25,197 nt of DNA from positions 1-25,197 of IMG/VR virus record IMGVR_UViG_3300025264_001379. One strand, written 5' to 3'. Positions within the stretch are counted from its first letter, which is position 1. Every line of letters starts with the position of its first letter. The stretch comes from a virus. Positions 1-22,970 of the stretch are shown here, one piece after another. Below the pieces are notes generated by a model, which saw only the letters and a program-made list of their open reading frames with translations, was not told the origin of the DNA and ran no database searches. The position numbers and the translations under genes are program-made.

Positions 1-2094
1 CAGGAACTCCATGCCGTCCGTGAGGATGCCGCCAAGGGCGTCGTCAACCGCGCCATAGACACCCGATGCCGCCCCGAACAGCGGGCCGAACGATCCGGCT
101 GTGATACCCCCAACACCAAGGCCAAGGACGCCGGCCGCCAGTTGCCCCTGGGAGTAACGGTCTGACGTGCTGAACTCAAGACCCGCGCGCTGCCGCGCAA
201 CCATATCAACCGCGCCACCAATGCCGAGCTGCAGGGTTTGTAGGGCCTGAAGCATGCCCTGGTTGATGCCTACCAGCTGGCCGATACCGCTCTCCGAGCC
301 TTCCACGGCACGGCGAATGCTCTCTGATTTTGCGTTGATATCACCGAGTACGGTGCCGGTGCCCTGGCGCGCCTGGCGGTCTTCGGTTGGGTCCCAGTCG
401 TCGCCGGAGAGCCAGTCGGAAATCTTGTTTACAGCAAGTCCTGCAATGCCGCCGGCAACCGCCCCGGCAATGGGGCCAAAAATCCCAGCCGCGGCTTGGC
501 CAGCCATCTGCTCAGTCAGGGCATCCGTAACCATGCCTCCGATCGCTCCAGCTAGCGCCCCGCCAATGCTGGCACCGATTCCATCCCAGTCGCCGGAGGT
601 GATAGCGCTCTGCAAACTGCTGGCTACACGCTGGCCCGCAGCAGACATTTGCTTTTCCACTTTCTCAGCGAAATCTGCGCCGCCTTCATCGCCGGCGTCG
701 GCCATGCCTTCCACCAGGTTGGCAATCAGAGTGTCACGATAGGACTCTGAGATATCTCCGTTTGCCGCCGCCTCGATTAGGAGCTGCTGCTTTTCGTAAA
801 CAGACTCAAACTCAGCGCCAAGAGGGTCCAGCTCGTTCACCAGGGCCATGACGGACTGCTGATATTCGCGCTGCGCGCGAGTAAGCTCCCGCTGCGCCTC
901 CTCCTCTTTCTTGGTGGCGATCGCCGCCTGCTCGTGCTGGTAGATTTGGTCGTAGTAGGTATTGATCAGCCCGATCTTTTCTGCGCCAGCCTTTGCGTCC
1001 CGCGCAGCGGCAATGTCCACCTGGCGGTTGTACTCAATCATCTCCAGGGTGCTCTTGCCCTGGGTTTCGGCTTGTACGCGAAGCTTTCCGATCAGCTCAT
1101 CAACGGCTTCAACGGCATCGCCGCCTGCGGCTCCCGCCAGATCCGAAAGCGTATCCCTTAGGAACTGGGCTCGCTCTTCTGCAGTGCGGGCAGAATCAAA
1201 GAACTCTCCAATGCTGCCAACCAGATTCTGCAGCGGATCACTCTCGCGCCCCAAAGTAGTGGAGATTTCCGCCACGGTTTGTTCGAGAACGCGGAAGTTT
1301 TCGATAACCGGGTTTGCATCTAACGTTCTCAGGGCAAGGAAGATCCGGCGTGCAGCCTCGACACCTTCATCGCCCGCAAGCCCAAGCGAGTCACGGAGAT
1401 CAATGACCGCGCCACCAACTGCCCGCCCAAACGGCGCACCCTCGAAGAAGTCCGATAGGTCTGAAAAGCCAACAGTGTCGGCAATATCATCAAAAGAGTC
1501 TCGAATGGCGCGGGCTGACTGGCGGGATGCCTCCTCGGCTGCCGCCATCGCGGATACGATGCGCGCACGAGCGGCCACCTCGCTTTCCCTGGCAAGATCT
1601 CTGATCTCTCGGGTAAGCGTGGGTATGCCATCGTTATCCTCGATGGTTTCATCCAGGGACTTCATGGCTGCATCAAGGGCCTTGGTGGCATCCTCGCCCT
1701 CGCCCATAGAAGCAACTAGCGATCCACCAATAACGCTGCCGATGGCGAGCACAGCACCAAGTAACGCGCCACCGGGCCCCAGAATTCCGAGCAGCTGAGA
1801 GCCTTGCTGACCTAGCGCGACAAACGCGCTGGTGCCAGAGCCGACTTGTACAAAGAAGTCCTGAAACTGATAGCCAGCCTGCTGAAGCGAGCCCTTCTGA
1901 AGGCGGAACATCCGGTTGGCTTCTTGCCCGGCGGTGGTAAGGCCCGCCATCTGGCGCGTGTTGGCCTGGGCGGCAGTGGCGGTACCTGTCAGAGAACCCT
2001 GAAGGCCACGGACTTCGCGGGCGGTCTCCCGCACAGTGCCGCTTACGCCTTTGTTGTTTGCCTTGATGGCAAGCGTCAGGTTCATCTGTTCCAT
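1..2094 (-). CDS. Tail tape-measure protein (partial, C-terminus off window)
   Basis: The reading frame is open from ATG at 2094 to the left edge, 698 codons without a stop, so the C-terminus is missing. Tape-measure proteins set siphovirus tail length and fill the tail tube. Residues about 98-129 form a Gly/Ala-rich hydrophobic stretch after a QFQDFFVQVG-like motif typical of the lambda-type tape-measure N-terminal domain. Residues about 378-440 are charged, Gln/Glu-rich and probably coiled coil. Further Gly/Ala-rich hydrophobic segments lie at about 505-555 and 650-698. An AGGA ribosome-binding site lies 6 bases upstream of the start. The gene begins 2 bases after the DUF1799 stop, matching the lambda order GT then H. 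Position, length and composition agree; the family assignment is strong. Confidence 0.9.
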   Translation of the reverse strand, partial: MEQMNLTLAIKANNKGVSGTVRETAREVRGLQGSLTGTATAAQANTRQMAGLTTAGQEANRMFRLQKGSLQQAGYQFQDFFVQVGSGTSAFVALGQQGSQLLGILGPGGALLGAVLAIGSVIGGSLVASMGEGEDATKALDAAMKSLDETIEDNDGIPTLTREIRDLARESEVAARARIVSAMAAAEEASRQSARAIRDSFDDIADTVGFSDLSDFFEGAPFGRAVGGAVIDLRDSLGLAGDEGVEAARRIFLALRTLDANPVIENFRVLEQTVAEISTTLGRESDPLQNLVGSIGEFFDSARTAEERAQFLRDTLSDLAGAAGGDAVEAVDELIGKLRVQAETQGKSTLEMIEYNRQVDIAAARDAKAGAEKIGLINTYYDQIYQHEQAAIATKKEEEAQRELTRAQREYQQSVMALVNELDPLGAEFESVYEKQQLLIEAAANGDISESYRDTLIANLVEGMADAGDEGGADFAEKVEKQMSAAGQRVASSLQSAITSGDWDGIGASIGGALAGAIGGMVTDALTEQMAGQAAAGIFGPIAGAVAGGIAGLAVNKISDWLSGDDWDPTEDRQARQGTGTVLGDINAKSESIRRAVEGSESGIGQLVGINQGMLQALQTLQLGIGGAVDMVARQRAGLEFSTSDRYSQGQLAAGVLGLGVGGITAGSFGPLFGAASGVYGAVDDALGGILTDGMEFL

Positions 2095-2096
2095 GG

Positions 2097-2423
2097 TCAG
2101 TCCTGTTGCTCCCGGAACGCTTCCAGAGCGCCGCTTTCAATCGTCTGGAGCTGGCTGAACGTTCTGGCCGGATCGTCCAGGTCGCTCATTCGGATCACCA
2201 CATCCACGGCGGTGTAATCCAGCCCCGTTCTTACGCCTGCCATCCCTGCATATCGCCACTGGGTTGCACACTTGAGAAAAGTCAAAACTGCGTCCCAGTT
2301 TTCCGGCAGGACCAGGAACTCCCGATCCCCATCCCGGTGCAGCGATTCGGTGTCCACTCCCTGGATACCGAAGGCCTGCAAATCCGACTCAAGGCCGCCA
2401 GGATCTGCCTGACGACCTTGCAC
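2097..2423 (-). CDS. DUF1799-type tail assembly chaperone, probable -1 frameshift extension (lambda gpT analogue)
   Basis: The protein contains a WDAVLTF...TQWR...GLDY pattern characteristic of DUF1799, the C-terminal partner of siphovirus tail assembly chaperones. From its first possible start, a GTG at 2423, it is 108 residues, but that GTG has no convincing ribosome-binding site. The frame is open upstream to 2462 and lies exactly in the -1 frame of the preceding gene, directly after an AAAAAAG slippery heptamer. I infer it is made mainly as a fusion: 102 residues of the upstream protein plus 121 residues read from 2462, about 223 residues in all. By analogy with lambda gpGT, the fusion would load the tape measure with tail-tube subunits. 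The alternative is weak independent initiation at 2423. Confidence 0.8.
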   Translation of the reverse strand: MQGRQADPGGLESDLQAFGIQGVDTESLHRDGDREFLVLPENWDAVLTFLKCATQWRYAGMAGVRTGLDYTAVDVVIRMSDLDDPARTFSQLQTIESGALEAFREQQD

Positions 2424-2443
2424 CCAGAACCGGCCTGCCGCCC

Positions 2444-2767: not shown

Positions 2768-2780
2768 AAGGGAGGGCTCC

Positions 2781-3716: not shown

Positions 3717-3719
3717 GTG

Positions 3720-4318: not shown

Positions 4319-4740
4319 CAGATAAACCCTTTGCTGTCTGCGCGATCCCACACGCGTCCGCCAGACTGGATCTCAGCGCCATCGTTAGAAGTGGGCTCAT
4401 CGCCAGCATCACTAACGCCCAGGGAAACCCGTCCCATAGACACCTGGCGCAGCAACTCAACCGCCGCCTTATAGCGCGTCTCCACCACCTCCGGGATGTT
4501 GTCGTCGTGCAGGTGGTACCGAGCCATATCGGAGCACACCCGAACCAGAACGGTCGGGGTGCTTGTAAGTGGCAACTGGTACCGCGCAGCGAGATAACCA
4601 TCTATCTCGGCGGTTGCGTCAGCCAGGGCGCGATCAAGCACGGCGGCATCAATCGCTCCGGCATTACTCCGATCGGTGAGCTCAACCATCTCCCGCTCAC
4701 TGAACCGGCTGATCATGTCGGCCTGGCTGGCGTAACTCAT
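4318..4740 (-). CDS. Mu gp36-like protein (DUF1320), head-tail connector candidate
   Basis: A 140-residue protein opens with MSYASQADMISRFSEREMVELTDR and has a central DGYLAARYQLPL motif, both hallmarks of the DUF1320/gp36 family of Mu-like phages. Members resemble head completion or connector proteins that sit between the portal ring and the tail. It is mostly helical. Its ATG overlaps the previous stop by 4 bases (ATGA), and its own TGA overlaps the gp37-like start by one base, so the three genes are translationally linked. Length is normal for the family. Confidence 0.85.
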   Translation of the reverse strand: MSYASQADMISRFSEREMVELTDRSNAGAIDAAVLDRALADATAEIDGYLAARYQLPLTSTPTVLVRVCSDMARYHLHDDNIPEVVETRYKAAVELLRQVSMGRVSLGVSDAGDEPTSNDGAEIQSGGRVWDRADSKGFI

Positions 4741-5244: not shown

Positions 5245-6156
5245 TTATTCCAGCCAGGGAGACACGAGCAGCTCGGCTGTGCCCTGGTAGACGTTGGTTG
5301 CGCCTGCCGCGGCGCGGTTGGCCTTGAGCACCTCAAAGCCTGCTCCTTCCAAGGAGGGCGGAACCACCAGCAGAGTTGGGCGAATAGCCAATGGTCGGCC
5401 GCCATCTGCTTTGAAGTTCATCATGGCGGTACGCGCCTTGGCGTAATTCTCTTTGGTCAGCGGCTGCCGGCTCTTGTAAGCCATCTGCCAGAAACCAAAG
5501 CCCACGTTTGAGCGAGCGCGAACGCCGTATCGGTATTCGTCCTCGGTGAACACGTGCTCATCGTCGCTCTTGGTCATCTGCTGCAGGTCGGGCTTAACGC
5601 GCTCCTGGAAGATGATCGGCTTGATGGCGCGACTCACGTCGAGCAGATACCACGCAGCACCTGGATCGGTTGCGGGGATATCTTGGTTTGAAACCGTTGC
5701 CGGAGTGCCAGTGCCATCTACATTTGGATACACCGGGTGGTCGGTATCGAAGAAGTTCTGGCCGTCGTAGCACAGCGTGGTGCCGCCCGCCGCAAGAAGG
5801 GCATACACCAGCTCATCCGGATGGATGTTCGCAGCGCGACCCATTTCCTGGAACAGCATGGCGTAAGCGCCGATGTTGTCATCTTCGATATCGGTGCGAG
5901 CAACGCCCACGGTGGATTCGAACAGCTTGTTGGTGATCTGGTAGCCGTGGGCTGCCATATCCTTGATCACACGAGCGCCTACCCACTCGCGGAATTGCGG
6001 GAACTGGCCCAGCCAGCCGTAGGTGTTCGAGCTGGATGAGCTCGAAACCTTGGAAGCCACCTTGCCCCAGGTGGGCTCAACCATGGCCAAGCCCGCTTCG
6101 TACTCTTTCTTGTAGCTGGTGAACAGCGCCGTCAGAAGTGCCGGGGTAATAATCAT
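5245..6156 (-). CDS. T: Major head (capsid) subunit, Mu gpT-like
   Basis: A 303-residue protein begins MIITPALLTALFTSYKKEY, the signature start of Mu-like major head subunits (Mu gpT is about the same length). It contains the family's WLGQFPQFREWVGAR and YDGQNFFDTDHP segments and ends with LLVSPWLE-type sequence. It self-assembles into the HK97-type icosahedral shell, guided by the scaffold and protease encoded upstream. The ATG at 6156 overlaps the protease stop by 4 bases (ATGA) and has a GGAG ribosome-binding site. There is no sign of truncation. Confidence 0.95.
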   Translation of the reverse strand: MIITPALLTALFTSYKKEYEAGLAMVEPTWGKVASKVSSSSSSNTYGWLGQFPQFREWVGARVIKDMAAHGYQITNKLFESTVGVARTDIEDDNIGAYAMLFQEMGRAANIHPDELVYALLAAGGTTLCYDGQNFFDTDHPVYPNVDGTGTPATVSNQDIPATDPGAAWYLLDVSRAIKPIIFQERVKPDLQQMTKSDDEHVFTEDEYRYGVRARSNVGFGFWQMAYKSRQPLTKENYAKARTAMMNFKADGGRPLAIRPTLLVVPPSLEGAGFEVLKANRAAAGATNVYQGTAELLVSPWLE

Positions 6157-6668
6157 GCGGTTTTCTCCTTAGCCTTTACGCCTTTCGCCTTCAGGAACTC
6201 CTCCGGCGTTTGGCCCATGTGGCGGCAAACAGCCAGCTCTTCTTCAGTGAGCTGATCATCTCCCTCGGGGGGCGTCTTGCCGTTGGTTTGTTGGCCGGTC
6301 AGCGCAGCGATCGGCTGGGCGCTGCCCAGGAAACTACGCAGGGCAGCAATGTCCTTTTTGCCCAGGTCCCGCGCCCAGCTTTCCAGAGACGGCATCAGTC
6401 GACCGTCTTCCAGGCCTTCGCCTACCAGCTTGTCCACCTCGCCGGTGGTCAACTGGGTTGAAAGAGCTGTCACGCGAGTGTTCAGCTCATCAAAAGCGGC
6501 TTTGGGCACGTACTTTTCCGGATCTGGGTTGTTTGCCTGGCTGCGCAATGCCGCCATGTCGGTCTCGGTCTTTGCGGCTTTGTCCATCAATGCCTGAACA
6601 GCCGCTCGAACCTGCTCAGGGGTGGCGTCTTCGCCCAGCCCGAGCAATTCCAGCAGTTCTTTATCCAC
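6153..6668 (-). CDS. Z: Nested scaffold protein, Mu gpZ-like (internal in-frame start)
   Basis: Inside the protease gene, in the same frame, a GTG at 6668 is preceded by AGGAG at 9 bases spacing. Initiation there gives a 171-residue product, starting VDKELLELLGL, that comprises exactly the helical, charged C-terminal half. In Mu, the scaffold gpZ is made from an internal start in gene I and shares its C-terminus. The internal ribosome-binding site and the domain boundary support the same arrangement here. Whether the GTG is used is an inference. Confidence 0.55.
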   Translation of the reverse strand: MDKELLELLGLGEDATPEQVRAAVQALMDKAAKTETDMAALRSQANNPDPEKYVPKAAFDELNTRVTALSTQLTTGEVDKLVGEGLEDGRLMPSLESWARDLGKKDIAALRSFLGSAQPIAALTGQQTNGKTPPEGDDQLTEEELAVCRHMGQTPEEFLKAKGVKAKEKTA

Positions 6669-7181
6669 GGGTTTGGTCTCCTCGTGTGGTTGGTGCAGGT
6701 AACGGGCAGCCGCCACATCGGCGATCCCATCAATGGCCGGGTTATTGGTCACCGCCGCCATAAGCAGCTCGGTAACCACACCGGAATTCGGGTCAAACTT
6801 GAAAACAGGGGAAAGGTAGCGGTACTCATCGCCAGTAATCAGCGCGGCCGCTCGTTCGGTCCACTCGACATCCACCGCATACAGGCCATCGCCTTCGCGC
6901 CACTCCAGGGTGTTGAACCAGGCAGCAGCCGGGGCCGGGTTGCCGGAGGTTTCGGCGTAGAGGGTCTGGTGTTCGTAGTCGATCACGAACGGGGTCTGGC
7001 GCTCAGTGGCCAGGGCCACCAGTCTGCGCGCGGCGTCAGCATCCAGGCACCAGCCTTCCACGCCGTGAGGCCGGCCATCCCGGGCACGGAAAACGCCAGC
7101 CGGGAACAGCTGGATCTCCGATCCGGGCTTCCGGAGCCGGGTGGTGCAGGCAGCGATGTGAGTGCGGGGTGATGTTTTCAT
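6153..7181 (-). CDS. I: Prohead protease, Mu gpI-like
   Basis: The protein belongs to the Mu-like protease (gpI) family, which processes the prohead and scaffold during capsid maturation. From ATG 7181 (MKTSPRTH) it is 342 residues; an in-frame ATG at 7208 would add 9. Neither start has a clear ribosome-binding site. The protease region spans residues to about 170 and includes the conserved PFVIDYEHQT segment and the EYRYLSPVF motif. The rest is charged and helical, with Gln/Glu/Lys-rich sequence typical of a scaffold domain. A second in-frame start at 6668 probably yields that domain alone. A 240-bp non-coding gap precedes the gene, as expected if it has its own late promoter. Confidence 0.9.
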   Translation of the reverse strand: MKTSPRTHIAACTTRLRKPGSEIQLFPAGVFRARDGRPHGVEGWCLDADAARRLVALATERQTPFVIDYEHQTLYAETSGNPAPAAAWFNTLEWREGDGLYAVDVEWTERAAALITGDEYRYLSPVFKFDPNSGVVTELLMAAVTNNPAIDGIADVAAARYLHQPHEETKPVDKELLELLGLGEDATPEQVRAAVQALMDKAAKTETDMAALRSQANNPDPEKYVPKAAFDELNTRVTALSTQLTTGEVDKLVGEGLEDGRLMPSLESWARDLGKKDIAALRSFLGSAQPIAALTGQQTNGKTPPEGDDQLTEEELAVCRHMGQTPEEFLKAKGVKAKEKTA

Positions 7182-7269
7182 GGGGCCAGTTTGGGAGCTG
7201 GCGCGCATGGCAGGAACGCGAATGGATTCGGGCAGTGATCCGGAGGTGGGCGCGGGAGGAAAATTGCAC

Positions 7270-7348
7270 CTGGCGACGGGGAGAATACCCCTACGGGGTG
7301 GAGCTGCTCAAGTATTGCGCGTTAGACCCACGTTAGAATCGTCGCCAG
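7270..7348. repeat. 9-bp perfect inverted repeat enclosing promoter-like region
   Basis: CTGGCGACG at 7270-7278 and CGTCGCCAG at 7340-7348 are exact reverse complements, separated by 61 bp. The enclosed segment holds the candidate PI-like promoter, a small hairpin and the tandem TCTAACG motif. The repeat could fold the leader transcript into a long-range stem or mark a protein-binding site. Confidence 0.5.
7282..7311 (-). promoter_or_regulatory. Candidate late promoter (PI-like) upstream of protease I
   Basis: On the minus strand TTGAGC (7311-7306) and TATTCT (7287-7282) are 18 bp apart, each matching the sigma70 -35 and -10 consensus at 4 of 6 positions. Two TCTAACG direct repeats at 7337-7331 and 7326-7320 lie just upstream of the -35 and are 11 bp apart, about one helical turn, as an activator site might be. 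In Mu, PI lies upstream of gene I and needs the activator C. No experimental support exists here. Confidence 0.35.
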
Positions 7349-7421
7349 TATGCCTATCTGGTTTTACGCGCCCCGTTGGTGCTCATAAGGGTCAGAATCG
7401 ATTAGAGGCGATCTGAGGCGG

Positions 7422-7907
7422 TCACTCAAAGGCGCCCGCAAGATGCTCGGCAGCGATCTGCAGTATATCGCGTTCATCCTCCGGCCCGATACCCAGAAAC
7501 GGGCGGGCGGGGATATCGCCCCAGGGGATGGGGCCACCACGGCTGGTGGTGCCGAACTCGCCCTGCTGGGCGCCGAAGTGGTGAGTGGGCCCGTAGACCA
7601 CATTGGTGCCAATCTGGGCGAAGTCCCGCCCATAGTCGGTATCGATGGAGCTGCGCAGGCGGCCGCTGTCCTGCAGCAGGTCACCGCCCTGGCGGTACGG
7701 CCGCAGGGCCAGCGTGACCTCCGAGAGTGGATCCCAGGCCACGCCGGTGGCCGGGTCGGATTCGGTGGCGAAGGCGCGGGCGGTAGCCTCTTCCAACACC
7801 CCGGCGATCCGCTTCATCGCCGGGGCCGGATCCTCCACGCGATTGACCAGGCGATTCAGCGCCTGGAGCACCTCATCACTGTTGTGGGTGATCTCGATAC
7901 GACTCAT
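7422..7907 (-). CDS. G: Virion morphogenesis protein, Mu gpG-like
   Basis: This 161-residue protein belongs to the phage virion morphogenesis (Mu gpG) family, linked to tail completion and head-tail joining. It shows the family features: N-terminal MSRIEITHNSDEVLQALNRL, a central LSEVTLALR, the DSGRLRSS motif, and a C-terminal IPARPFLGI motif that is nearly universal in the family. It starts 2 bases after the gp30 stop, with GGAGGGG upstream inside gp30. It is the last gene before the 240-bp gap. Length matches Mu gpG. Confidence 0.9.
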   Translation of the reverse strand: MSRIEITHNSDEVLQALNRLVNRVEDPAPAMKRIAGVLEEATARAFATESDPATGVAWDPLSEVTLALRPYRQGGDLLQDSGRLRSSIDTDYGRDFAQIGTNVVYGPTHHFGAQQGEFGTTSRGGPIPWGDIPARPFLGIGPEDERDILQIAAEHLAGAFE

Positions 7908-7909
7908 GA

Positions 7910-9238
7910 CTACAGCAGCCCCTCCAGCGTTCCTTCCAGCAGTTCGTACCGGGCGCGATCCGCAAGCTCGGTAATGCGCACAACAACCGGCTGCAGGTTC
8001 GAGGCCAGCGGCGCAGCAGAGGTGCTCGCCAGCGGGTAAGGGGCCCGGATAACGCTCACGGTGCTCTGTTGCGCAGCGCCAGCCACATACACCAGGGCAT
8101 GATCAGCCGAATCCCAGAGGACGGCCTGGGGGCGGTGTAGCAGCTGCGGGATGGCCCGCCAGAACTCCAGGGCGGTGATGCCGCCCTGGACCTGGGCGCG
8201 GCGGAGAATCTCGCCCTCGGAGAGCGCCATAAGCCGGCCCGGAGCGCTACCGGTAAGGCGAAGCACTGCATTTGCCAGGTCGTCCGGCAGCAGGCCGGCG
8301 GCGGCCCGGCCCTGGCCGGTGGTTTCGCCAGCAGCCACCTGGTCCACCCACCGGGCGAAGCTGTCGCTGCGCAAGTCGCTACTGTTGAGGTCCCGGATCA
8401 CCTGGGCGCGCACCTCCGAGTTACTGATCTGGCCGAGCTTCTCGGCAATGCTTGCGTCCGTGCCGAATGCGCTGGCGCCGGGGTTGTGGCCCCAGCCCAG
8501 ATCCGGGCTCATGGTGCGGCCGTCCGGCAGGGTGACCACCGGGTGATTCACGGTCATCACCTCGCCGGTCTGCATGTTGGCGCCAGTCTCCCGCGTGACC
8601 ATCTGAATGTAGTCCGCGCCGCTTTCGACCGTTAGACCCTCCCGCTGCAGGTTGCGCTCGGACAGATTTCTAACGCTGCAGCGACAGCCCCAGCCGTTGG
8701 GCGGGTAGATGAACTGCCAGATGGGATCATCCCACCGGAACACCTTGCCGTGCAGCGCGGCGTGGCTTGGGCGGGTGCGCGAGTCCAGGATTGCCTGGTA
8801 CATCCAGTACGGGCGATCGTCCACCAGCGCCAGCTGCCGGCGGTACCGGCCGGCCATGTACGCCGTGGAGGTGTTGGCCCGGAAGATGGTCTTCAAGCGG
8901 TGCACGCTCCCCAGCTGGACTTCCCGCTCATTGCCCTGGGCGTCCATCCAGGTCTCTTTCCCCCACCAGCCCTTTTTCTTCAGGGCCGGCGCCAGGCGGT
9001 TGACGAACTCGCGTTCGGTTATCCCTTCGGAGATCGCCGCATCGGTGGCCTCGCGGATATCTTCCAGGATGTCCATGCGCATGGCCTTGGCCACGGTGAA
9101 GGCCTTGGCGTGAGCGGCTCCGTCCATCTCCTGCCACTGGTCAGTAATTCGAAAGCCCTTGGCACGAAAGAACGCCACAGCGTCCTTCGGCTCCATGCTG
9201 AACGCGGCCAGCAGGTCTGCCTTATTCTTCTTCGGCAT
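7910..9238 (-). CDS. Head morphogenesis protein, Mu gp30/gpF-like (SPP1 gp7 family)
   Basis: A 442-residue minor head protein. The central segment carries the Phage_Mu_F domain: RANTSTAYMAGRYRRQL, then LDSRTRPSHAALHGKVF, then PPNGWGCRCSVR with its paired cysteines. Such proteins enter the prohead and help DNA ejection or head assembly, and bind near the portal. The start at 9238 overlaps the portal gene by 17 bases in another frame. The C-terminal third, beyond the F domain, includes an IIRAPY/ALVYVAG-like segment whose function I cannot name. Length is close to Mu gp30. Confidence 0.92.
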   Translation of the reverse strand: MPKKNKADLLAAFSMEPKDAVAFFRAKGFRITDQWQEMDGAAHAKAFTVAKAMRMDILEDIREATDAAISEGITEREFVNRLAPALKKKGWWGKETWMDAQGNEREVQLGSVHRLKTIFRANTSTAYMAGRYRRQLALVDDRPYWMYQAILDSRTRPSHAALHGKVFRWDDPIWQFIYPPNGWGCRCSVRNLSERNLQREGLTVESGADYIQMVTRETGANMQTGEVMTVNHPVVTLPDGRTMSPDLGWGHNPGASAFGTDASIAEKLGQISNSEVRAQVIRDLNSSDLRSDSFARWVDQVAAGETTGQGRAAAGLLPDDLANAVLRLTGSAPGRLMALSEGEILRRAQVQGGITALEFWRAIPQLLHRPQAVLWDSADHALVYVAGAAQQSTVSVIRAPYPLASTSAAPLASNLQPVVVRITELADRARYELLEGTLEGLL

Positions 9239-10793: not shown

Positions 10794-12340
10794 GCGCCTG
10801 TCTCCTGAATGGGCAAGTCATCGTCGTCGCCCCAGCTGTTCTCTACGGCATCCCAGCGGCTTTTGGGGCTGGGCGCTGCGGTGTACTCAATATCGACCGG
10901 ATCCTGCCGGCTGGCCGCGTAGGCCAGCGCCAGGGCAATGGCAAAATCCCCATGGCGCCCATCCTTGCGAGAATTGTTTGGCACTTTCGCCACGCCGTTG
11001 ATGGTCTGCACGGCGCGCAAGTCGTCTACCAGGTAACTGTCTGCCGGCATCTCCAGCATTCCGTCTTCAAAGGCAGCCTTCAGGGGCGGCATGTTCTCCC
11101 GGTACCAGCCTTCAGACAGCATCACCTCCTGCACCCGGTGGCCGCCGTATGCCTGGGCAGTCACTTCTGCCAGGTAGGCGCCGTTACCGGTCGCATCCAT
11201 TGCGCCGCCCTGCAGGCGGGGCACTCTGTCCAGGATGTAGTGCAGAATCTGTCGCTGCTGCTCAAACGGCACGTTGGCCAGCTCCACCACAAAGGGCGTT
11301 CGGCGCACCAGGTCCTGGCCGATCAGCAACGGCACAATCACCGTGAGGTCCATCCGGCGGGCAAAGTCTTCGCCAAAGGCCAGCCAGAGATCCGGCGGCA
11401 GGTTCATCAGTAGCGGTTTCAGGTGCTCTTCGCACCAATCCCGGATTTCGGCCTCACGCATGGCCGTTGGCCACTGCTTGAATGCGTCATCCAGCTTCAG
11501 GCGCAGCACTGGGATGTCTTTGCGGGTTCTGTCCTCCACCAAGGCCCTGGGCAGCCAGTTGCCGGAGCCCTCGGCAGGTATGGCGTCCAGCTCTTCGTCT
11601 GCGGCTGCGCCGTAGAAGTCGTAAACCTCTGCCACCCATGCATCCTCGGCGGCTTTGGTCCAGGGCTTGCCCAGCCGCATACACACCCGTTCATACAAGC
11701 CCTGGGCTACGGCCTCCTTGAACGTGATGCGCTGCACCGAGCCCTTACGCCGGCCGGCGCGGATGTCGTTGATCAGCAAATTGAAGGGGTTCTTGTCGCC
11801 ATTGTGAGTGCTGATCACGCGGACCTTGCCGCCCCATATCAGCAGCGCCAGCGCGGCCTTCAGCAGCTCACCGAGCTGGTCGTGGAACGCGGCCTCATCG
11901 ATGACCACCACGCCCTGCTTACCCCGAAGGTTTGCGGGGCGACTGGACAGAGCCACAATCCGGTGGCCGCTGTCGGGAAACCGGATGGTGAAGGTCTTGA
12001 TGTGCTTATCGTCGCTGTCGTCTTCCCACAGGCCCTCTTCCACGGCACTGGCCGCGTGGTTAAAGACTCTGGCCCACAGGGCGCAGGCCTCCACGTATTC
12101 AATGGCCATGTCCTGGTTGTAGCCGATGTAATACACGTTCTGGCCGCCGGCGCCCTTGGCCGCCGCTGCGATCAGCACATCGTCGGCAGACTCGGCCCAG
12201 GTGAGGCCCGTTCGCCGGCTCTTTTCGCTGACTTTCAGTTGGCTGTCGTCAGCAATCCAAGCCTGCTGATAAGGCAACAACACCGGCGGCGGAGCGTCGG
12301 CGTTGGCGGCTGGAACGTTAGAAAGCGGGTTATTTGGCAC
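10787..12340 (-). CDS. Terminase large subunit, Mu gp28-like
   Basis: A 517-residue packaging motor. The ATPase part has a non-classical Walker A region (SRRTGLTWAES, residues about 41-50) and a clear Walker B, VVVIDEA, at 143-149 with D147 and E148. The C-terminal nuclease-like part has acidic positions in AFGEDFARRMD, GAMDATGNG and HGDFAIALA. It cuts and pumps phage DNA into the prohead; Mu-like phages package by headful from the left end. The start is GTG at 12340, whose G overlaps the TAG stop of the small terminase gene, implying coupling. Length is slightly below Mu gp28. Confidence 0.93.
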   Translation of the reverse strand: MPNNPLSNVPAANADAPPPVLLPYQQAWIADDSQLKVSEKSRRTGLTWAESADDVLIAAAAKGAGGQNVYYIGYNQDMAIEYVEACALWARVFNHAASAVEEGLWEDDSDDKHIKTFTIRFPDSGHRIVALSSRPANLRGKQGVVVIDEAAFHDQLGELLKAALALLIWGGKVRVISTHNGDKNPFNLLINDIRAGRRKGSVQRITFKEAVAQGLYERVCMRLGKPWTKAAEDAWVAEVYDFYGAAADEELDAIPAEGSGNWLPRALVEDRTRKDIPVLRLKLDDAFKQWPTAMREAEIRDWCEEHLKPLLMNLPPDLWLAFGEDFARRMDLTVIVPLLIGQDLVRRTPFVVELANVPFEQQRQILHYILDRVPRLQGGAMDATGNGAYLAEVTAQAYGGHRVQEVMLSEGWYRENMPPLKAAFEDGMLEMPADSYLVDDLRAVQTINGVAKVPNNSRKDGRHGDFAIALALAYAASRQDPVDIEYTAAPSPKSRWDAVENSWGDDDDLPIQETGAW

Positions 12341-15478: not shown

Positions 15479-15703
15479 CTACCGGCGCCTTTTGCGGTCG
15501 GCGCCGCTCAGCCGGGCTTTGTTTTTTATGGCGTTCAGTCTGCGGCGCCAATCATCTCGCTCCGCCTCATCTTCGATTCTACCGAGCCAGGCGCGGATCT
15601 CTGGCGGGCGCATGGTGCGAATCATTTGCCAGGCCCTGTGCCAGCGCTGCTTATCTTGCTCAATCTCTGCGCGCTGACTGTCTGGCATGGTGGCCAGATT
15701 CAT
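15479..15703 (-). CDS. Small basic hypothetical protein downstream of Mor
   Basis: A 74-residue protein rich in Arg, Lys, Trp and Glu, ending in ADRKRRR, probably two or three helices (EIEQDKQRWHRAWQMIRTM, then EIRAWLGRIEDEAERDDWRRRL). The ATG at 15703 overlaps the Mor stop by 4 bases (ATGA), so it is co-translated with Mor. I recognise no family. A 5-bp stem (15456-15469) follows in the 77-bp gap, too weak to call a terminator. A nucleic-acid-binding or regulator-partner role is only a guess from charge and position. Confidence 0.7.
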   Translation of the reverse strand: MNLATMPDSQRAEIEQDKQRWHRAWQMIRTMRPPEIRAWLGRIEDEAERDDWRRRLNAIKNKARLSGADRKRRR

Positions 15704-16086
15704 TCAAACAGGTCTCCCTGGTTGTCGTCTTCCGGGTTGGCGTTCAAGATCTTCATCACCTGCCGATCGGTCAGCTCGTACTTCAGCGCCAGCTCGGACA
15801 GCTTGGCACCGCCATTCCGCTCCCGGCGGATAGCGCGGTTGCGGATCTCGGTCTTCAGGTGCTTGCCCCTGGGCACTTTCAGTCGCTCGCCGGCCATATA
15901 CTCGCTGAGGGTTTGGGCGGCCTCTGCGCCTACGGCGTCCACCAGCGGGTGGTGGTGAGGCATTCGCTGGGGCACCCAGAACTCGGTGCCTCCAAATGCG
16001 TCCATCAGCTTCAGCACGGCAGGCAGGCCAATAACCTCCGCAAGATCGGCCATGGAGGCCGGCAGCAGTTCAGCTTCAGCGGTCAT
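15700..16086 (-). CDS. mor: Middle/late transcription activator, Mor family
   Basis: A 128-residue Mor/C family protein, nearly the same length as Mu Mor. The N-terminal half contains the dimerisation part (LAEVIGLPAVLKLMDAFGGTEFWVP, about residues 14-38). The C-terminal half has the HTH (NRAIRRERNGGAKLSELALKYELTDRQVMKIL, split across 83-115). In Mu, Mor turns on the middle promoter Pm and its relative C turns on the late promoters. Only one such gene is present here, as in B3/D3112-type phages, so it probably activates late genes directly. The ATG overlaps the previous stop by 4 bases. Confidence 0.9.
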   Translation of the reverse strand: MTAEAELLPASMADLAEVIGLPAVLKLMDAFGGTEFWVPQRMPHHHPLVDAVGAEAAQTLSEYMAGERLKVPRGKHLKTEIRNRAIRRERNGGAKLSELALKYELTDRQVMKILNANPEDDNQGDLFE

Positions 16087-16586: not shown

Positions 16587-17176
16587 TTTTCCGCCCCTTT
16601 CCGGTGCTCTTCCAACCATTGGTCCGAGCCCATGTAGTGGGCACACAACCGAGCCAGCATCCTCCTGTTTCTTCGCCAGTTCTTCGGCAGGCCAGAAAAC
16701 TGTTTTTCTGCGTCTTCAAGCGTTAGATTCTGATCTTTCAGACAGCGCTCTAACGCGCTCAGCAGGCGGCGCTTCTCCAGCTCAACATCGAGAGCTGCAA
16801 TCAAACCGGTGTATTGCTCCACGGTTTTAAGCCACGCGCAGCGCTCGATCTTGTACTGGCGCTTAGCAATGGCGTCGGCGTAGCTCCACGGGGCTTTCAG
16901 CTCGGCCAACAGGGCCTCAATCTTCTGCAGCATGGGCTGGGCGTCCAGGTTGTGCGGCTTGCCAGGGTACTGCGCCACGCGCTTCCGGGGCTTGGCCTTA
17001 AAGCCGCGTTCCTTCATGTGCTGCACAATCTTGTGCAGCTCTGCCACGTTGCAGTCAGAGCAGGAGCGCTTGCCGCCGGTAACGGTGGCGATCATCTGGC
17101 GGTAGGTATCTTCGTCCAGCGCCAGCTCTTTACGGGCAATGTGGATCTGGGCGAGTACGCCTTTGCGGTTGCTCAT
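16583..17176 (-). CDS. gemA: GemA/gp16 regulatory protein (DUF1018)
   Basis: A 197-residue protein. The N-terminal part (residues 4-60: VLAQIHIARKELALDEDTYRQMI, then TGGKRSCSDC, then ELHKIVQHMKERGF) is the DUF1018 signature of Mu GemA/gp16. C39 and C42 give a small Cys pair. In Mu, GemA modulates host gene expression and DNA supercoiling. The C-terminal part (about 80-197) is helical and basic. The ATG overlaps the previous stop by 4 bases. The gene contains one of the two GCGTTAGA-N21-TCTAACGC inverted repeats (16720-16756), where the Leu codons are TTA and CTA rather than the usual CTG. Confidence 0.88.
   Translation of the reverse strand: MSNRKGVLAQIHIARKELALDEDTYRQMIATVTGGKRSCSDCNVAELHKIVQHMKERGFKAKPRKRVAQYPGKPHNLDAQPMLQKIEALLAELKAPWSYADAIAKRQYKIERCAWLKTVEQYTGLIAALDVELEKRRLLSALERCLKDQNLTLEDAEKQFSGLPKNWRRNRRMLARLCAHYMGSDQWLEEHRKGAEK
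16720..16756. repeat. GCGTTAGA-N21-TCTAACGC inverted repeat (copy in gemA)
   Basis: A perfect 8-bp inverted repeat with a 21-bp spacer lies inside gemA. The same arms with the same spacer length occur at 22757-22793 in the transposase gene, while the spacers differ in sequence. This looks like a spaced binding site or stem-loop rather than a duplicated segment. Confidence 0.6.
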
Positions 17177-17490: not shown

Positions 17491-17534
17491 CGCTGTCAGG
17501 CTCCTGGCTTTATGAATTCGGCTGCTCATCAGTA

Positions 17535-17573
17535 CCGGGCCACCACGCCCGGCAGACGCCCCGGCTGGGGCGT
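17535..17573. terminator. Tandem GC-rich hairpins between early and middle genes
   Basis: CCGGGC-N6-GCCCGG (17535-17552) and ACGCCCC-GGCT-GGGGCGT (17556-17573) are two perfect stems of 6 and 7 bp, 3 bases apart, just after the stop at 17579. Neither has a clear T-run on the minus strand; the plus strand continues TTTCGCTT. They may attenuate early transcripts or protect the message end. Intrinsic termination is uncertain. Confidence 0.4.
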
Positions 17574-17578
17574 TTCGC

Positions 17579-17809
17579 TTAGTGTTTTTGGTTGGATCTA
17601 CTAACGCATTGCTCCTGCTGCACGTCGAACGTTTCACGTATCGCTTCGCGGATGGCGTCGCACCCAACCATTGCCAGGACTTGCACGATGGTTGGGTCTT
17701 CGCCCATTTTGTCGCCGTGAAAGTCCAGCCCGACCTGGAACCCCTTTTCTAGCGATTCCAGGGTGATGGTGGCCCTGGCTCCTACCTTCATTCCGGTGGT
17801 TTCAGCCAT
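17579..17809 (-). CDS. Hypothetical protein downstream of HU
   Basis: A 76-residue protein overlapping the HU gene end by 8 bases, with AAGGA upstream of ATG 17809 inside HU. It starts METT-like (MAETTGMKVGARATITLES) and contains a helix GCDAIREAIRETFDV. There is no signal peptide or Cys motif of known type. It ends the early operon before the tandem hairpins. No family is recognised. Confidence 0.65.
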   Translation of the reverse strand: MAETTGMKVGARATITLESLEKGFQVGLDFHGDKMGEDPTIVQVLAMVGCDAIREAIRETFDVQQEQCVSRSNQKH

Positions 17810-18136: not shown

Positions 18137-18754
18137 TTAAAGGGCCGCTACGTCGAGCGGGATTTGGCGGTGCGGGCCGTCTTCGCCCTGCCGCTCGTAG
18201 AAGCGCAGATAGCTCTTGCTGCCGGTGATCTGGATGGAATCCATAATTGCCTGCATGGCCTGCTGCCACTTCTCGTCTTTGATGTTCAGGCTGCGAAGGC
18301 CCAGCACTCGGGCGGTGCTTATCTTGCCTTCCTTATCGGTCTGGAAGGCGTGTTCAACCAGGGCCTGCACTTCGGAGCTGCTGCCGGCGGTCCACTCGTG
18401 AATGCACTGGTCAATCAGCTCCTTAGCTACCTGAAGTCGTTCGTCAAACGCCAGATGGTCGGCCACGGCGCGCTTTACCTGGTACTGGCCATCAAAGCTG
18501 GCCAGGGTTACGTTGCCTTTCTTGCCGCCGTAGGCCGTGTCGTACTCGCGGGCGCTCAGTTCCAGGAAGGCTTCTACCTCGCTGGAAATCTCCGCTTTTA
18601 CCCGGCGCATCTCGTCTTGCAGGGTTTTCACCTTGCCGATCACCCGCTGCACCAGGTCATCACGCAGCCGGTCGATGTCTTTGATTTGGTCCACCGGTAC
18701 CCAGTGGCCTTTTGCGTTGCGGCGGAACTTATCCGCCTGGGCTACTTCGCTCAT
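18137..18754 (-). CDS. DUF3164 family protein
   Basis: A 205-residue protein with the DUF3164 signature: GHWVPVDQIKDIDRLRDDLV near residues 16-35, the GNVTLASFDGQYQVKRAV segment and a C-terminal SKSYLRFYERQ. Such proteins are conserved in the early operon of Mu-like phages; the function is unknown. It is largely helical and charged. GAGG lies upstream of ATG 18754, which follows the previous stop by 11 bases, so it is the first early gene not joined by an overlap. Confidence 0.88.
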   Translation of the reverse strand: MSEVAQADKFRRNAKGHWVPVDQIKDIDRLRDDLVQRVIGKVKTLQDEMRRVKAEISSEVEAFLELSAREYDTAYGGKKGNVTLASFDGQYQVKRAVADHLAFDERLQVAKELIDQCIHEWTAGSSSEVQALVEHAFQTDKEGKISTARVLGLRSLNIKDEKWQQAMQAIMDSIQITGSKSYLRFYERQGEDGPHRQIPLDVAAL

Positions 18755-18765
18755 AACTCAGAACC

Positions 18766-19116
18766 TCACGTGGTTTGGGGTTGCGGACGGGTGGTGCGCT
18801 TGAAACAGCTCAGCCTGCCGCGTCTTTTGGGGTGCCTCAGGTGGCGCAGGGGCTCGAACGGCCGCACATTGTTGCGCGGCAGGTCGTCCAGCTCCCGGGT
18901 GATTTCTTCGGCCCGTTCTTGCAGGATTTCTTCCCGAATGAGTCTCACGCGGACCGTGGTTTGTGCTGGCATCAGCGGGAACGGAGCGCCCAACAGGTGC
19001 TCATACCGGGCCGGATCGGCCAGATACTGGTCCAGGCTTACGCCGTGTTTGTAGAGCATGTGGCTCGCGTATTGGTCGGCGTAATGCTCCAGATAGGCGG
19101 TTGGGTACATTTTCAC
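18766..19116 (-). CDS. Hypothetical early protein
   Basis: The start is a GTG at 19116 that overlaps the previous TGA by 4 bases (GTGA); an ATG at 19110 (MYPTAYLEHY) is an alternative. About 116 residues. The N-terminus is Tyr/His-rich, the middle helical and acidic (LIREEILQERAEEITREL), and the C-terminus basic and Arg/Pro-rich (RHPKRRGRLSCFKRTTRPQP). No family is recognised. It closes the chain of overlapping early genes. Confidence 0.65.
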   Translation of the reverse strand: MKMYPTAYLEHYADQYASHMLYKHGVSLDQYLADPARYEHLLGAPFPLMPAQTTVRVRLIREEILQERAEEITRELDDLPRNNVRPFEPLRHLRHPKRRGRLSCFKRTTRPQPQTT

Positions 19117-19472
19117 TGGTTATCTCCCATGGCTGCCGGGTTGCGCGGGCAGCTTCGGCACGCTCGGTAAAGGCGAATACGGGTCGGGTTGCTGCCAATG
19201 AATGGCTTGGCGCGCTCTTTTTGGCACTGCTCGCCAGTGATCTCGCCCAACACCGGGCAATCCACAAAAGATGCCCAAGTCATAATGGCCTTCTCCATTC
19301 GACCGGTATTGGCCGGGTATTTGTTGGCAAGCAAAGTACTGACGCTGGCGCGGTTCACGCCGATTCGCTCGGCTGCCGCGTGGTTGCTGCCCGCCTGGGC
19401 AACAAGTCGAGCCAACACGCGGATAAACTCGGGCGGCTCTGGGCCCCAGGCGCTGATATCAGGCTTCTTCAC
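19113..19472 (-). CDS. HTH DNA-binding protein with Cys-rich C-terminus
   Basis: The real start is GTG 19472, which overlaps the previous TGA by 4 bases (GTGA); a longer upstream frame lies inside the neighbouring gene and is rejected. The product is 119 residues. Residues about 18-56 form an XRE-like HTH (VLARLVAQAGSNHAAAERI, GVNRASVSTLLANKYP). The C-terminal half has Cys in DCPVLGEITGEQC and RACRSCP, a possible zinc site. It is probably an early regulator in the transposition operon. The exact role is unknown. Confidence 0.75.
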   Translation of the reverse strand: MKKPDISAWGPEPPEFIRVLARLVAQAGSNHAAAERIGVNRASVSTLLANKYPANTGRMEKAIMTWASFVDCPVLGEITGEQCQKERAKPFIGSNPTRIRLYRACRSCPRNPAAMGDNQ

Positions 19473-20101
19473 AGCAATTCCTCCGGCTCGTCGGCGTACA
19501 TCACCTTGTTCAAGTTCGGGTCGTACACGGTTTTCACGTTTTGAATCTGGGGCGGGCGCGGGCCTGTGTCCATGCGGGGGATCAGGCACAACTTCTCCAT
19601 GCGCCCCTTGCGGCGGTTGCAAGGCTCTACCACCTCCAGGTACCCCGCCTTTTTCAGCATGTGCACATAACGCTTGGCAGAGGTGACCTTTACTTCTATT
19701 CCGGAGCTGCTGGCGTGTGCGGCCAACTGCCTGGCATCCAGTGCGCCAAGCATGCGCATGCAGCGCCACATGGCTTCTTGGCCCATCCCGGAGGTGACCG
19801 GCTGGCCATCGCGGGTTAAGCGTGGGGCCTCGATGCCGGTGTCTTTAATCAGCTGGTAGTCCGAGCGCTCGTAACGCTCGTCGGTCAGGCGCACCACGTA
19901 TCCCCCGGCCATCAGGCTCTGGATGTAGGTTTTCACGGTTTCGTCATCCACATTGGCGGCCCGGGCCACATCGTAAATGCGGAACTTCAGTTTGAACTTC
20001 CGGATTTGCTCCCACACGCGCTGGCGCGGAGGCTTGCCACCAATCAATTCCATTTGCGCGGGCTTGCGATAGCCCTGGCGGTTGGCTACAGCTGTACTCA
20101 T
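19469..20101 (-). CDS. Tandem winged-helix DNA-binding protein
   Basis: The start is ATG 20101, overlapping the MuB stop by 4 bases (ATGA), giving 210 residues. Two winged-helix-like units are visible: residues about 28-75 (VWEQIRKFKLKFRIYDVARAA, DDETVKTYIQSLMAGGYVVRL) and about 110-155 (EAMWRCMRMLGALDARQLAAH, TSAKRYVHMLKKAGYLEVVEP). It follows an ATPase that lacks the N-terminal HTH of Mu B, so it may supply DNA binding in trans; that is a hypothesis. No named family is recognised. Confidence 0.75.
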   Translation of the reverse strand: MSTAVANRQGYRKPAQMELIGGKPPRQRVWEQIRKFKLKFRIYDVARAANVDDETVKTYIQSLMAGGYVVRLTDERYERSDYQLIKDTGIEAPRLTRDGQPVTSGMGQEAMWRCMRMLGALDARQLAAHASSSGIEVKVTSAKRYVHMLKKAGYLEVVEPCNRRKGRMEKLCLIPRMDTGPRPPQIQNVKTVYDPNLNKVMYADEPEELL

Positions 20102-20877
20102 GCCAACCTCCGCTTCGGTGCTTCTCCGGTGTAAAGCTCTCGGCGACCCCATGTTTTGCGATCAATGCGCGATGCGCCCGCAGCGGTGGCAGCGTCGGCA
20201 ATCAACTCCAGATTCACCGCCACCCGGCGAACGCTGCCCCCGGAAATTTCTACCAAGTGTGCTAGCAGGTCTTCCGCGATATCCACGCCCGGGGCGTACA
20301 GCGGTGCCAGTTTCACCGCATCTTCCAAGGTGACTGGCTGCGCCCCCACCCAGCTCAGAATCCGACCGTGAAAGCGCTCCCATTTTTTAAGCTTGGTGGG
20401 CATTTGCTCTTCGCCAATGATCAGAATCGGGGCGTGACTGGCTTCGTACAGATCGCGAATCAACTCCACCGCCTTTTTCTCTACCAGGTGATCCATCTCG
20501 TCGATAATCAGGGGGCGGCCGCTCATCGCCAGCTCCTGCGCTGCCTGGTCCAGCATTTCCGGGATGGTCTTCGCCGGCTGCATGCCCATTTCATGCAAAA
20601 TGGCCAGCAGGGTATGCTTCTTTGTCCACACGCTTTTGGCCTGCACGTAGTAGGCGCGGCGGCGGCAGGCTACATGGGTAGCCGCTACCGATTTACCAAA
20701 CCCGCTCGGGCCATACAGACACACCATGCCCGGCAGACTGCCGGTGCGATCAATGGCGCGCTCAAGAGCCACATCGCACAGGCCCAGGTTTGCAGTTTCA
20801 GCTACGCCGTTGACGGCCAATACTTTCTCGTTCAACATATTCATATCGCTCTTTTCTGGTGATTGTTTGGGGCTCAT
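20098..20877 (-). CDS. B: Transposition target-capture ATPase, Mu B-like
   Basis: A 259-residue AAA+ ATPase. Walker A is GPSGFGKS (56-63) and Walker B is LIIDEMD (122-128). A sensor-like LIIGEEQMP follows, and a C-terminal helical domain contains ISGGSVRRVAVNLEL. MuB proteins coat target DNA as ATP-bound filaments, capture the target for MuA and give target immunity. It lacks roughly the first 50 residues of the 312-residue Mu B, which hold a HTH. The ATG at 20877 overlaps the transposase stop by 4 bases; an internal ATG at residue 12 has a somewhat better ribosome-binding site. Confidence 0.92.
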   Translation of the reverse strand: MSPKQSPEKSDMNMLNEKVLAVNGVAETANLGLCDVALERAIDRTGSLPGMVCLYGPSGFGKSVAATHVACRRRAYYVQAKSVWTKKHTLLAILHEMGMQPAKTIPEMLDQAAQELAMSGRPLIIDEMDHLVEKKAVELIRDLYEASHAPILIIGEEQMPTKLKKWERFHGRILSWVGAQPVTLEDAVKLAPLYAPGVDIAEDLLAHLVEISGGSVRRVAVNLELIADAATAAGASRIDRKTWGRRELYTGEAPKRRLA

Positions 20878-22970
20878 CGGGCTGCAACCGCTGGGCCCCA
20901 GTCGTCAAAATCTTCTTCCCTGCGCTTCTTTGATCGGTATTCGGCACTTCTCGGGTAACGCTCCACCCAGTCTTTCGCATCGCTATCGATCGGCCTGGCA
21001 CCGCTGGCATACTCTTGGTATAGGGTGTAACGCTGGTCGGGAGTCATGCTTTCGAACCGGCTCAGCGGCAAAATCTCCTCCTCTACCGGCTGATGCAGAC
21101 TGCGTGATTGCGCTCGTATCAGCTCCCCATTAATCGTGCCCAGGGCGCCCAGGCTCATGCTGTTGTCGTGCTCCAGCAGCGGCTGGCCACGGCGCTCTTC
21201 CTCAATCTCCTGAATCTGAGCCTCCTTGCGACGCAGTCGGCCTTCAAACCGCTTCTCGCGCGCCTGCTCAACAAACGGAACCGGGTAGTAGTCGGTGCGG
21301 TTAGCGTTCCACTCCGCGCGGCATATCAGGCGGTCGTGCTCTGGCTCAAAGATCCAGATGTGGTTGGCGTTGTTCAGGTCGTAAGCCACGTGAACCTCCT
21401 CGCCGTGCCACTCGGTCAGCTCATTGCTGAAATACCGGTTGGCGAAAAGCTCGATCTCGCCACGGCGAACCTTACGGGTAACCCTCGGACGGAAGATCTG
21501 GGCGGCTTCATCGCCAGTTAGCATTACCGGCTGCCAGCCCTGGTCTACGAACATTTGCCACTGCTCGTCCGGGGTTGCATGGCGGCGCTTGCCGGTGGCA
21601 TCAGTCACTTTCGGCAGGGTGCTGTGGGGCCGACTGTTGTACCAATCCACTCGCGCATGCACCCACTCCATGAACTCAGGAAAACCCATCAAGTGCATGG
21701 TGCCGCCTTCACGGATAGCCTTCCGGCTCATCTTGAACTGGCTCTGACGCGCCTGCTGATCCATGTCAGCCCCCATATAGCCCGGCAGAGTTTTGGCGCC
21801 ACTCACCCAAAGGGTTTGGTGTACACGCTCAACCACGCCACGCGCTTGCGAGTTGTAAGGGATGGAGTGCGTCATGGTGGTGCCCAGGCGGGCCATTACT
21901 CCGGTGGCTTCGTCTTTGAGCATGGCGTTGCAGTAGCCGGAGCCGTTATCCACGTAGTTGATCGCTGGCACTGCCTTTCCGCAGGCATCCATGAAAGCGT
22001 CCAAAACCGCAATACCGCTCTCAGCCAAGGCCACGGAAACGCCCACCACTCGCCGGGTAGCGATGTCTATCCAGGTAGTCACCTCTGGCCGGAAGGGCCG
22101 CCCGTGCAGTGGGTGCTGAACCTCGCCATCGAAGGTGTGACCGTCGGCGCTGTAAATGTCCGCCGGCAACAACTTGCTGAAGTCGCGCCGAGTGAACGGC
22201 AGGATGTTTTTCAGCTCGCGGGCGCCCATGCGGCCCTGGTTCTTGGCGATGTTGCCCATTTTCTTGAGAAAACGGCGCACCGAATCAATGCTGGGCGGCT
22301 TGCCCTCGCCCTGCCAGTTCGCCACCATTTCTGCGTGGGCAGCGTTGATGGACGGCTTTTCCGGGCGCTGCCAGCGCATCAGGAAATCGTTTGCCCAGAC
22401 CGGTACCGGATCGGGTTGGCGCTTCTTTGGGGCCAGCTGCTTAACGTCTGTGTAGAGGTAGCGTTTTAAGCTGCGCAGACTGGGGTAAGGCGAATTCCCG
22501 CCTCTCCCGCGCCTGTCTTTGGTCATGCGTAAAGCCTTGTCCAGCGCCGGGTTGCTGATCGCCAACTGCCCCACCTCGGCATGGGTGAGCAGGGTTGTCA
22601 TGGCGGCCTGCTGGGTTATGCCCTGAGCCTCTAGGCCCCGGATAGAGTTGATAATGGTTACCCGCGCATCCGCGGCCGATCGCTGCGCCTCCGTTAGTGG
22701 TAGGCTGCCAAACGCCTTAACGGCGGGTGCCAACTGTTGCGCCGGCTCCACAGCTCGCGTTAGAAGCTCGCCAGCCATGCGGCTTTCTAACGCCCTGCGC
22801 GCTTCAAACGGCAGATTGCTGATGTGGTATTCAAAGCCGCCACCGCGACCCATGCGCTGCTGAGCCTCCCAGGATTCGCGCTTGGCTTTTTTGATCATCC
22901 CTGCTTCGCTTTGCGGCATGGCAGGAAGTTTCGCCGAGGCCAGCTCGCTCGCTGTGAACCACTCTTTCAT
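20874..22970 (-). CDS. A: DDE transposase, Mu A-like
   Basis: The start ATG 22970 (MKEWFTASELA) overlaps the previous TGA by 4 bases and has GGGAG 8 bases upstream, giving 698 residues. Residues 1 to about 65 form the Mu-type winged-helix domain (WFTASELASAKLPAMP, GRGGGFEYHISNLP). The catalytic core contains D276 (ADGHTFDG), D341 (YVDNGSG) and E381 (GVVERVHQ), a complete DDE triad. The C-terminal region (TPDQRYTLYQEY) is the part that in Mu contacts MuB and ClpX. It catalyses strand transfer in integration and replicative transposition. An inverted repeat, GCGTTAGA-N21-TCTAACGC, lies near the 5' end. Confidence 0.95.
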   Translation of the reverse strand: MKEWFTASELASAKLPAMPQSEAGMIKKAKRESWEAQQRMGRGGGFEYHISNLPFEARRALESRMAGELLTRAVEPAQQLAPAVKAFGSLPLTEAQRSAADARVTIINSIRGLEAQGITQQAAMTTLLTHAEVGQLAISNPALDKALRMTKDRRGRGGNSPYPSLRSLKRYLYTDVKQLAPKKRQPDPVPVWANDFLMRWQRPEKPSINAAHAEMVANWQGEGKPPSIDSVRRFLKKMGNIAKNQGRMGARELKNILPFTRRDFSKLLPADIYSADGHTFDGEVQHPLHGRPFRPEVTTWIDIATRRVVGVSVALAESGIAVLDAFMDACGKAVPAINYVDNGSGYCNAMLKDEATGVMARLGTTMTHSIPYNSQARGVVERVHQTLWVSGAKTLPGYMGADMDQQARQSQFKMSRKAIREGGTMHLMGFPEFMEWVHARVDWYNSRPHSTLPKVTDATGKRRHATPDEQWQMFVDQGWQPVMLTGDEAAQIFRPRVTRKVRRGEIELFANRYFSNELTEWHGEEVHVAYDLNNANHIWIFEPEHDRLICRAEWNANRTDYYPVPFVEQAREKRFEGRLRRKEAQIQEIEEERRGQPLLEHDNSMSLGALGTINGELIRAQSRSLHQPVEEEILPLSRFESMTPDQRYTLYQEYASGARPIDSDAKDWVERYPRSAEYRSKKRREEDFDDWGPAVAAR
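22757..22793. repeat. GCGTTAGA-N21-TCTAACGC inverted repeat (copy in transposase gene)
   Basis: This has the same 8-bp arms and the same 21-bp spacer length as the copy at 16720-16756. Here the pairing can extend (GAAGC with GCTTTC, one bulged T). The encoded Leu codons are TTA and CTA, unusual in this GC-rich genome, which suggests selection on the DNA. Confidence 0.6.

Follow-up and report, generated by a model that had tools for sequence, protein, structure and literature searches.

CGTTAGA in Mu-like transposable phages: a conserved, helically phased site system with a tandem at the genome centre

The heptamer CGTTAGA belongs to a system of sites which are under selection at the DNA level, phased, centrally placed, deeply conserved and linked to the transposition module of Mu-like transposable phages. 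It was studied in a viral contig that is part of such a phage (IMG/VR record IMGVR_UViG_3300025264_001379); "the window" hereafter means this whole stretch of 25,197 nucleotides, in which the genes for MuA, MuB, GemA, Mor, gp27, F, a G-like protein, the I-protease and gp36 were identified. The comparisons described below support CGTTAGA as a site for a DNA-binding protein. There is about an even chance, in our judgement, that this protein belongs to the phage transposition module, being most likely the phrog_2030 protein, and that it organises the prophage round its centre. The features of the window are collected in Table 1.

Table 1. CGTTAGA sites of the window and the genes discussed in the text
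Feature	Position	Strand	Remarks
CGTTAGA, exact copies	1319, 4383, 7320, 7331, 8630, 8669, 12316, 16721, 16749, 22758, 22786		exact-word search
CGTTAGA, single site	1319..1325	-	tail/tape-measure region
CGTTAGA in gp36-like gene	4383..4389	+	conserved exactly in 3 of 8 relatives
CGTTAGT, one-mismatch convergent partner of site 4383	4411-4417	-	28 bp away
Gene I-like protease/scaffold	6153..7208	-	flanks central tandem
Central tandem CGTTAGA-CCCA-CGTTAGA, 11-bp direct repeat	7320..7337	+	intergenic G-I (7209-7421)
gpG-like virion morphogenesis protein	7422..7907	-	other flank of tandem
Convergent pair, starts 39 bp apart	8630..8675		gpF-like head gene; both sites retained in L015/G008
CGTTAGA at large-terminase gene start	12316..12322	+	39-bp convergent pair in G001 and G009
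Mor/C-family activator	15700..16086	-	disfavoured as binder
Convergent pair, 28 bp, in gemA	16721..16755		rare codons CTA and TTA conserved in all six relatives
phrog_2030 protein, two winged-helix domains, candidate binder	19469..20152	-	directly after MuB
MuB-like AAA+ ATPase	20098..20877	-
MuA-like transposase	20874..22985	-	HTH_Tnp_Mu_1, Mu-transpos_C
Convergent pair, 28 bp, in MuA-like transposase gene	22758..22792		kept in G005

Excess, conservation and geometry of the word

A preliminary description of the window had counted 11 exact copies, seven on the plus and four on the minus strand, and had read them as a putative protein-binding site selected on DNA. Every coordinate and the strand split were recovered on recount, but two to three copies, the number which had been expected by chance, is an overestimate, since the null models give about one; the excess is therefore larger than had been claimed. 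Dinucleotide shuffling of the window gives an expectation of 1.00, with none of 100 shuffles reaching 11, and Markov models of order 1 to 3 give 0.83-1.25. Among 6,629 7-mers of the window CGTTAGA ranks first with the order-2 and order-3 models (p 1.6e-9 and 9e-8, respectively) and second with the order-1 model. In the codon shuffle that had been set beforehand, which preserves each protein and its codon usage, the open reading frames tested hold 8 copies against a mean of 0.98, and 0 of 5,000 shuffles reach 8. The codons which had been called unusual at the sites are indeed rare in the window: TTA and CTA make up 2% and 3% of leucine codons, and AGA 6% of arginine codons.

Comparison with relatives points the same way at synonymous positions, where conservation had been proposed as a check. 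The rare leucine codons CTA and TTA of the gemA pair are retained in all six relatives while neighbouring residues change; the residue ahead of TTA varies between Ala, Thr and Ser, but its codon ends in CG throughout and the motif stays intact. The excess itself is retained in close relatives and reaches up to 31 copies per phage: distant relatives hold 31 copies in 37 kb (p 1e-25) and 28 in 39 kb (p 2e-25), and one holds 22 in 18 kb. The preliminary description had also named an equal enrichment of the host chromosome as a refutation, and the host genomes examined lack a comparable excess. A Marinobacter metagenome-assembled genome with a related prophage contains 71 copies in 3.9 Mb, about 1.8 per 100 kb, while the prophage contig has 7 in its first 20 kb; in the same 3.9 Mb the 11-bp tandem occurs just once, and convergent pairs (spacers 10-35 bp) number just two, both of them in the prophage contig. 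The CGTTAGA signal is a conserved site system, not a host property.

The geometry of the copies had been missed earlier. Eight of the 11 copies in the window are paired, one pair being direct at 11 bp and three convergent (28, 28 and 39 bp), and site 4383 is a ninth copy with a partner, at one mismatch. In 30-odd relatives, selected blind to convergent pairs, all 22 convergent pairs within 60 bp are spaced at 17-19, 28-30, 39 or 49 bp; direct pairs are about 11, 21 and 31 bp apart, and few pairs are divergent. When homologous pairs were collapsed to one, the 14 independent convergent pairs gave a resultant length R of 0.92 at 10.5 bp (p ~7e-6), which none of 20,000 random sets reached. The phased spacings place the sites on the same helix face, which would be expected from cooperative protein binding and not from RNA stems. 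Together with the null models and the synonymous conservation, the phasing supports the earlier reading of selection on DNA.

These results bear directly on the view that the excess comes from chance, codon bias or RNA structure, the probability of which is practically negligible. RNA stems could form from the inverted pairs; however, the null models, scans with control words and codon conservation contradict this view, direct repeats exist and copies lie on both strands, the phasing runs in steps of about 10.5 bp, and Rfam gives no RNA family at the sites. A restriction, Chi or uptake word is likewise argued against by the tandem, the phasing and the limitation of the excess to phages.

Two further observations may be added. 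In another record, L281 (IMGVR_UViG_3300005253_000481), positions 2125-2288 carry a ladder of six CGTTAGA, most of them separated by multiples of about 11 bp, and no Mu genes are recognised in the vicinity. The Rfam search of the window had its only match away from the sites, a Type II hammerhead ribozyme at 17516-17580 (minus strand, 80.2 bits), which belongs to the early operon and is close to the HU-like gene. Chromohalobacter phage YPCBV-1 has its only DNA match (94%) in this stretch, which also borders the match to Alteromonadaceae phage B23.

The tandem at the genome centre

The direct pair of the window is an instance of a widespread feature. Among the IMG/VR matches listed for CGTTAGA-N4-CGTTAGA, 81 of 119 loci have Mu-like genes, while among those listed for control words the Mu-like share is 1 of 75 (13-bp tandem) and 2 of 120 (reversed word). 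The tandem occupies the G-I position in more than 70 diverse Mu-like phages and lies between the gpG and I-protease genes wherever both neighbours are visible, typically 80-110 bp after gpG and often 115-150 bp before the I-protease. It points the same way as the genes in 48 cases and the opposite way in 30. In nearly all full-length contigs of 31-39 kb, D3112 and DMS3 included, it stands at 0.43-0.53 of the length, the exception being one degenerate element with the tandem at 0.77.

This place coincides with the annotated gyrase cut site of Mu, to the right of which CGTTAAA, GGTTTAA and CGTTTTA stand at 0, 11 and 31. Mu-like phages without CGTTAGA often carry a CGTTTAA-type tandem there, many with a third copy at +31; in the CGTTAGA class the 0/11 spacing is present and the third copy is absent. 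In Mu, the strong gyrase site is needed for end pairing (PMC10052514, PMC11626157), and its right arm wraps the C-terminal domain of GyrA through phased AT tracts (PMC11626157). Because of the same G-I place and the 0/11 spacing shared with the CGTTTAA-type and Mu repeats, the CGTTAGA tandem may be regarded as the counterpart of the Mu centre. D3112 carries the central tandem alone, with no dispersed copies, so dispersal is not universal; D3112-like phages suggest that what is essential is the centre, dispersed copies being a lineage elaboration. In Vibrio phage ZX4290 (L395), GTTTAAA is over-represented (20 vs 6.4), and 11-bp tandems of this type lie at 685, 3841, 18882 and 37049, that is, in the outer parts as well as at the centre.

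A 2021 Leptospira study called the conservation of central gyrase sites unclear. The literature searched gave no description of the CGTTAGA tandem, although the papers of 2004 and 2006 on the strong gyrase site of Mu may mention CGTTTAA-type repeats, and CGTTAGA as a whole word appeared only in one unrelated paper.

The transposition module and the candidate binder

Which genes the type of site follows was judged from trees of the same 60 phages (FastTree only), the trait being a CGTTAGA or another centre. The trait changes 2 times on the MuA tree (59 rows), 4 on MuB and 7 on GemA, but 8-9 times on the portal, gpF, gpG and Mor trees; sign tests on independent pairs were borderline, with a median p of 0.06 on portal and gpF and 0.25 on gpG. 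Since the fewest changes fall on the MuA and MuB trees even though the tandem adjoins gpG, the centre type, as read from these trees, tracks the transposition module and not the adjoining head genes. The binders named in the preliminary description fare poorly by this measure: Mor, with 9 changes, is disfavoured, HU is sporadic (10 of 32 CGTTAGA-centre phages), and neither Ner nor the repressor tracks the site type.

A better candidate is the phrog_2030 protein, encoded in the window by a gene whose profile match has an E value of 3.7e-64 over positions 2-196 of 202. Its AlphaFold2 model has two winged-helix domains (pLDDT 88), and a fold search of the PDB gave nothing beyond generic winged-helix matches, the AspA centromere-binding domain (E 0.004-0.013) being one of them. 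In a gene-family screen phrog_2030 occurred in 30 of 32 phages with the tandem as against 5 of 31 without it and was the only gene of the window that splits the two classes; no copy of it lies anywhere in the genome of the nearest portal relative that has a CGTTTAA centre. By profile search it is present in 38 of 39 tandem-bearing records. The exception, G029 (L286, L426-L427), is a degenerate element with MuA, MuB and Mor-like genes and a fragmentary protease, without phrog_2030 and head genes, and its tandem lies at 30252, directly downstream of MuB. With one degenerate element left out, phrog_2030 stands just after MuB in all 35 CGTTAGA-class phages that could be judged. Furthermore, in Marinobacterium litorale (G010, contig C7, 79152-90986) six CGTTAGA lie within 12 kb away from the main prophage, and this cluster includes a second phrog_2030 gene (87283-87909).

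The phrog_2030 protein is thus the most likely binder of CGTTAGA, leading but not proven, because divergent members occur without the word and MuA fits the trait as well: on its own tree phrog_2030 shows 3 changes of site type against 2 on MuA. The relatives without CGTTAGA are those of four alphaproteobacterial phages, Pseudoalteromonas HS6, Idiomarina and Aeromonas. As alternative cognate words, TCGTCTA of HS6 and CTATGCC of Rhodovulum were rejected since all their copies lie on one strand and are thus codon-driven, and TGGAACT of Thiobacimonas, although on both strands, comes without a tandem or phased pairs. Clustered CTGTTTA in an Aeromonas prophage (L232, 16051-16107) and clustered GTTAAAC in a Marinobacterium prophage (L217, 13514-15776), both with divergent phrog_2030, are possibly related words and perhaps reflect another specificity, the copies being too few to tell.

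The choice of phrog_2030 as binder and its part in organising the prophage are both inferred. In the proposed mechanism the phrog_2030 protein would load on the tandem at the genome centre and, in the lineage of the window, also on the phased pairs and single sites, along one helix face. The bound protein would mark and compact the prophage as a single unit about its centre, and the compacted prophage would let its two ends pair for replicative transposition, the same job as that of the central strong gyrase site in Mu. It is possible, if somewhat short of an even chance, that in a large branch of transposable phages the host-gyrase centre known from Mu gave way to, or was joined by, a tandem winged-helix protein of the phage and a genome-wide array of phased 7-bp sites anchored at the central tandem, a kind of phage nucleoid or self-mark.

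Other binders and comparison with known systems

The coincidence with the gyrase cut site of Mu, the 0/11/31 layout shared by Mu and the CGTTTAA-class phages and the wrapping of the GyrA C-terminal domain by phased AT tracts (PMC11626157) would also fit host DNA gyrase as the reader, with the 11-bp repeats as arm motifs wrapping that domain, the tandem as the strong gyrase site and the dispersed copies as extra sites. This is unlikely, though its probability is appreciable: what gyrase recognises, through indirect readout, is a degenerate pattern of 130 bp (PMC6379681), not a lone exact 7-mer, and the site type follows the transposition genes. In addition, B3 and Fc22 infect P. aeruginosa like D3112 and DMS3 yet have zero CGTTAGA, so a host protein alone does not require the word. 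Gyrase could still be engaged at the genome centre. The MuA-like transposase or MuB might instead bind CGTTAGA as internal enhancer or self-recognition sites; the MuA tree has the fewest changes, and MuA of Mu has separate end-binding and enhancer-binding domains. However, this reading is distinctly unlikely, as there is no CGTTAGA in the ends of DMS3 or the left end of D3112, in D3112-like phages the predicted L1-L3 and R1-R3 sites consist of other 22-bp sequences (PMC4378225), and the operator regions of the window, D3112 and DMS3 hold no conserved CGTTAGA cluster. A Mor/C-type activator acting at a late (gene I) promoter, with the tandem as its operator, is very improbable: although a Mor-family gene is present in all but one phage, and the distance to gene I is often suitable, the tandem occurs in both orientations to the genes, its direct repeat is asymmetric, most copies are intragenic and the Mor tree bears the 9 changes noted above. 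The late promoter of Mu lies at a comparable place upstream of gene I, which counts in favour of the operator reading.

Self-immunity as the role of the tandem alone is not favoured, because phage Ab30 self-inserts heavily (PMC5977238). In Ab30 a 37-bp insertion-free segment has been proposed as a gyrase site (PMC5977238); it cannot be taken as the footprint of the tandem, since the segment lies at 18,736-18,772 and the tandem at about 19,640. In the record used here (L373) the segment, at 18758-18795, overlaps inverted repeats, GGCACATTGTGCC...GGCACAATGTGCC, upstream of accessory genes in the anti-CRISPR position, so that a bound repressor is an alternative to a gyrase site there.

Should the phrog_2030 protein bind CGTTAGA, a family annotated just as "transcriptional regulator" or hypothetical would gain a candidate site on DNA that can be tested and, probably, a part in transposition. 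A sequence signature of two classes marks the centre of many transposable phages, which makes the question testable, for example in the P. aeruginosa laboratory phages DMS3 and D3112, and a short word becomes readable across phage genomes through its helical phasing.

Among known systems, the N15 centromeres and the Noc and SlmA sites also recur as short words along a single replicon and have a cognate protein that binds them. They are palindromes with known binders, whereas CGTTAGA is an asymmetric 7-mer with one-face phasing, and a ParB partner was not found in the window. PhoB-type boxes, 7-bp direct repeats with a 4-bp spacer, have the same 7+4 layout as the tandem; unlike them, CGTTAGA is mostly intragenic and forms convergent pairs, and no response regulator was found. 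The CGTTTAA-type tandem of Haemophilus, Photorhabdus, Vibrio and Chromohalobacter phages has the same place and 11-bp tandem and also starts with CGTT, but its phages often add the third copy near +31, mostly lack phrog_2030 and have no CGTTAGA excess. The strong gyrase site of Mu, finally, shares the genome centre, the position between G and I and, for the 0/11 spacing, the phased repeats; its repeats are AT tracts, while the phages of the window type have the exact word CGTTAGA, which, unlike the Mu site, is also dispersed as singles and phased pairs and linked to the transposition module.
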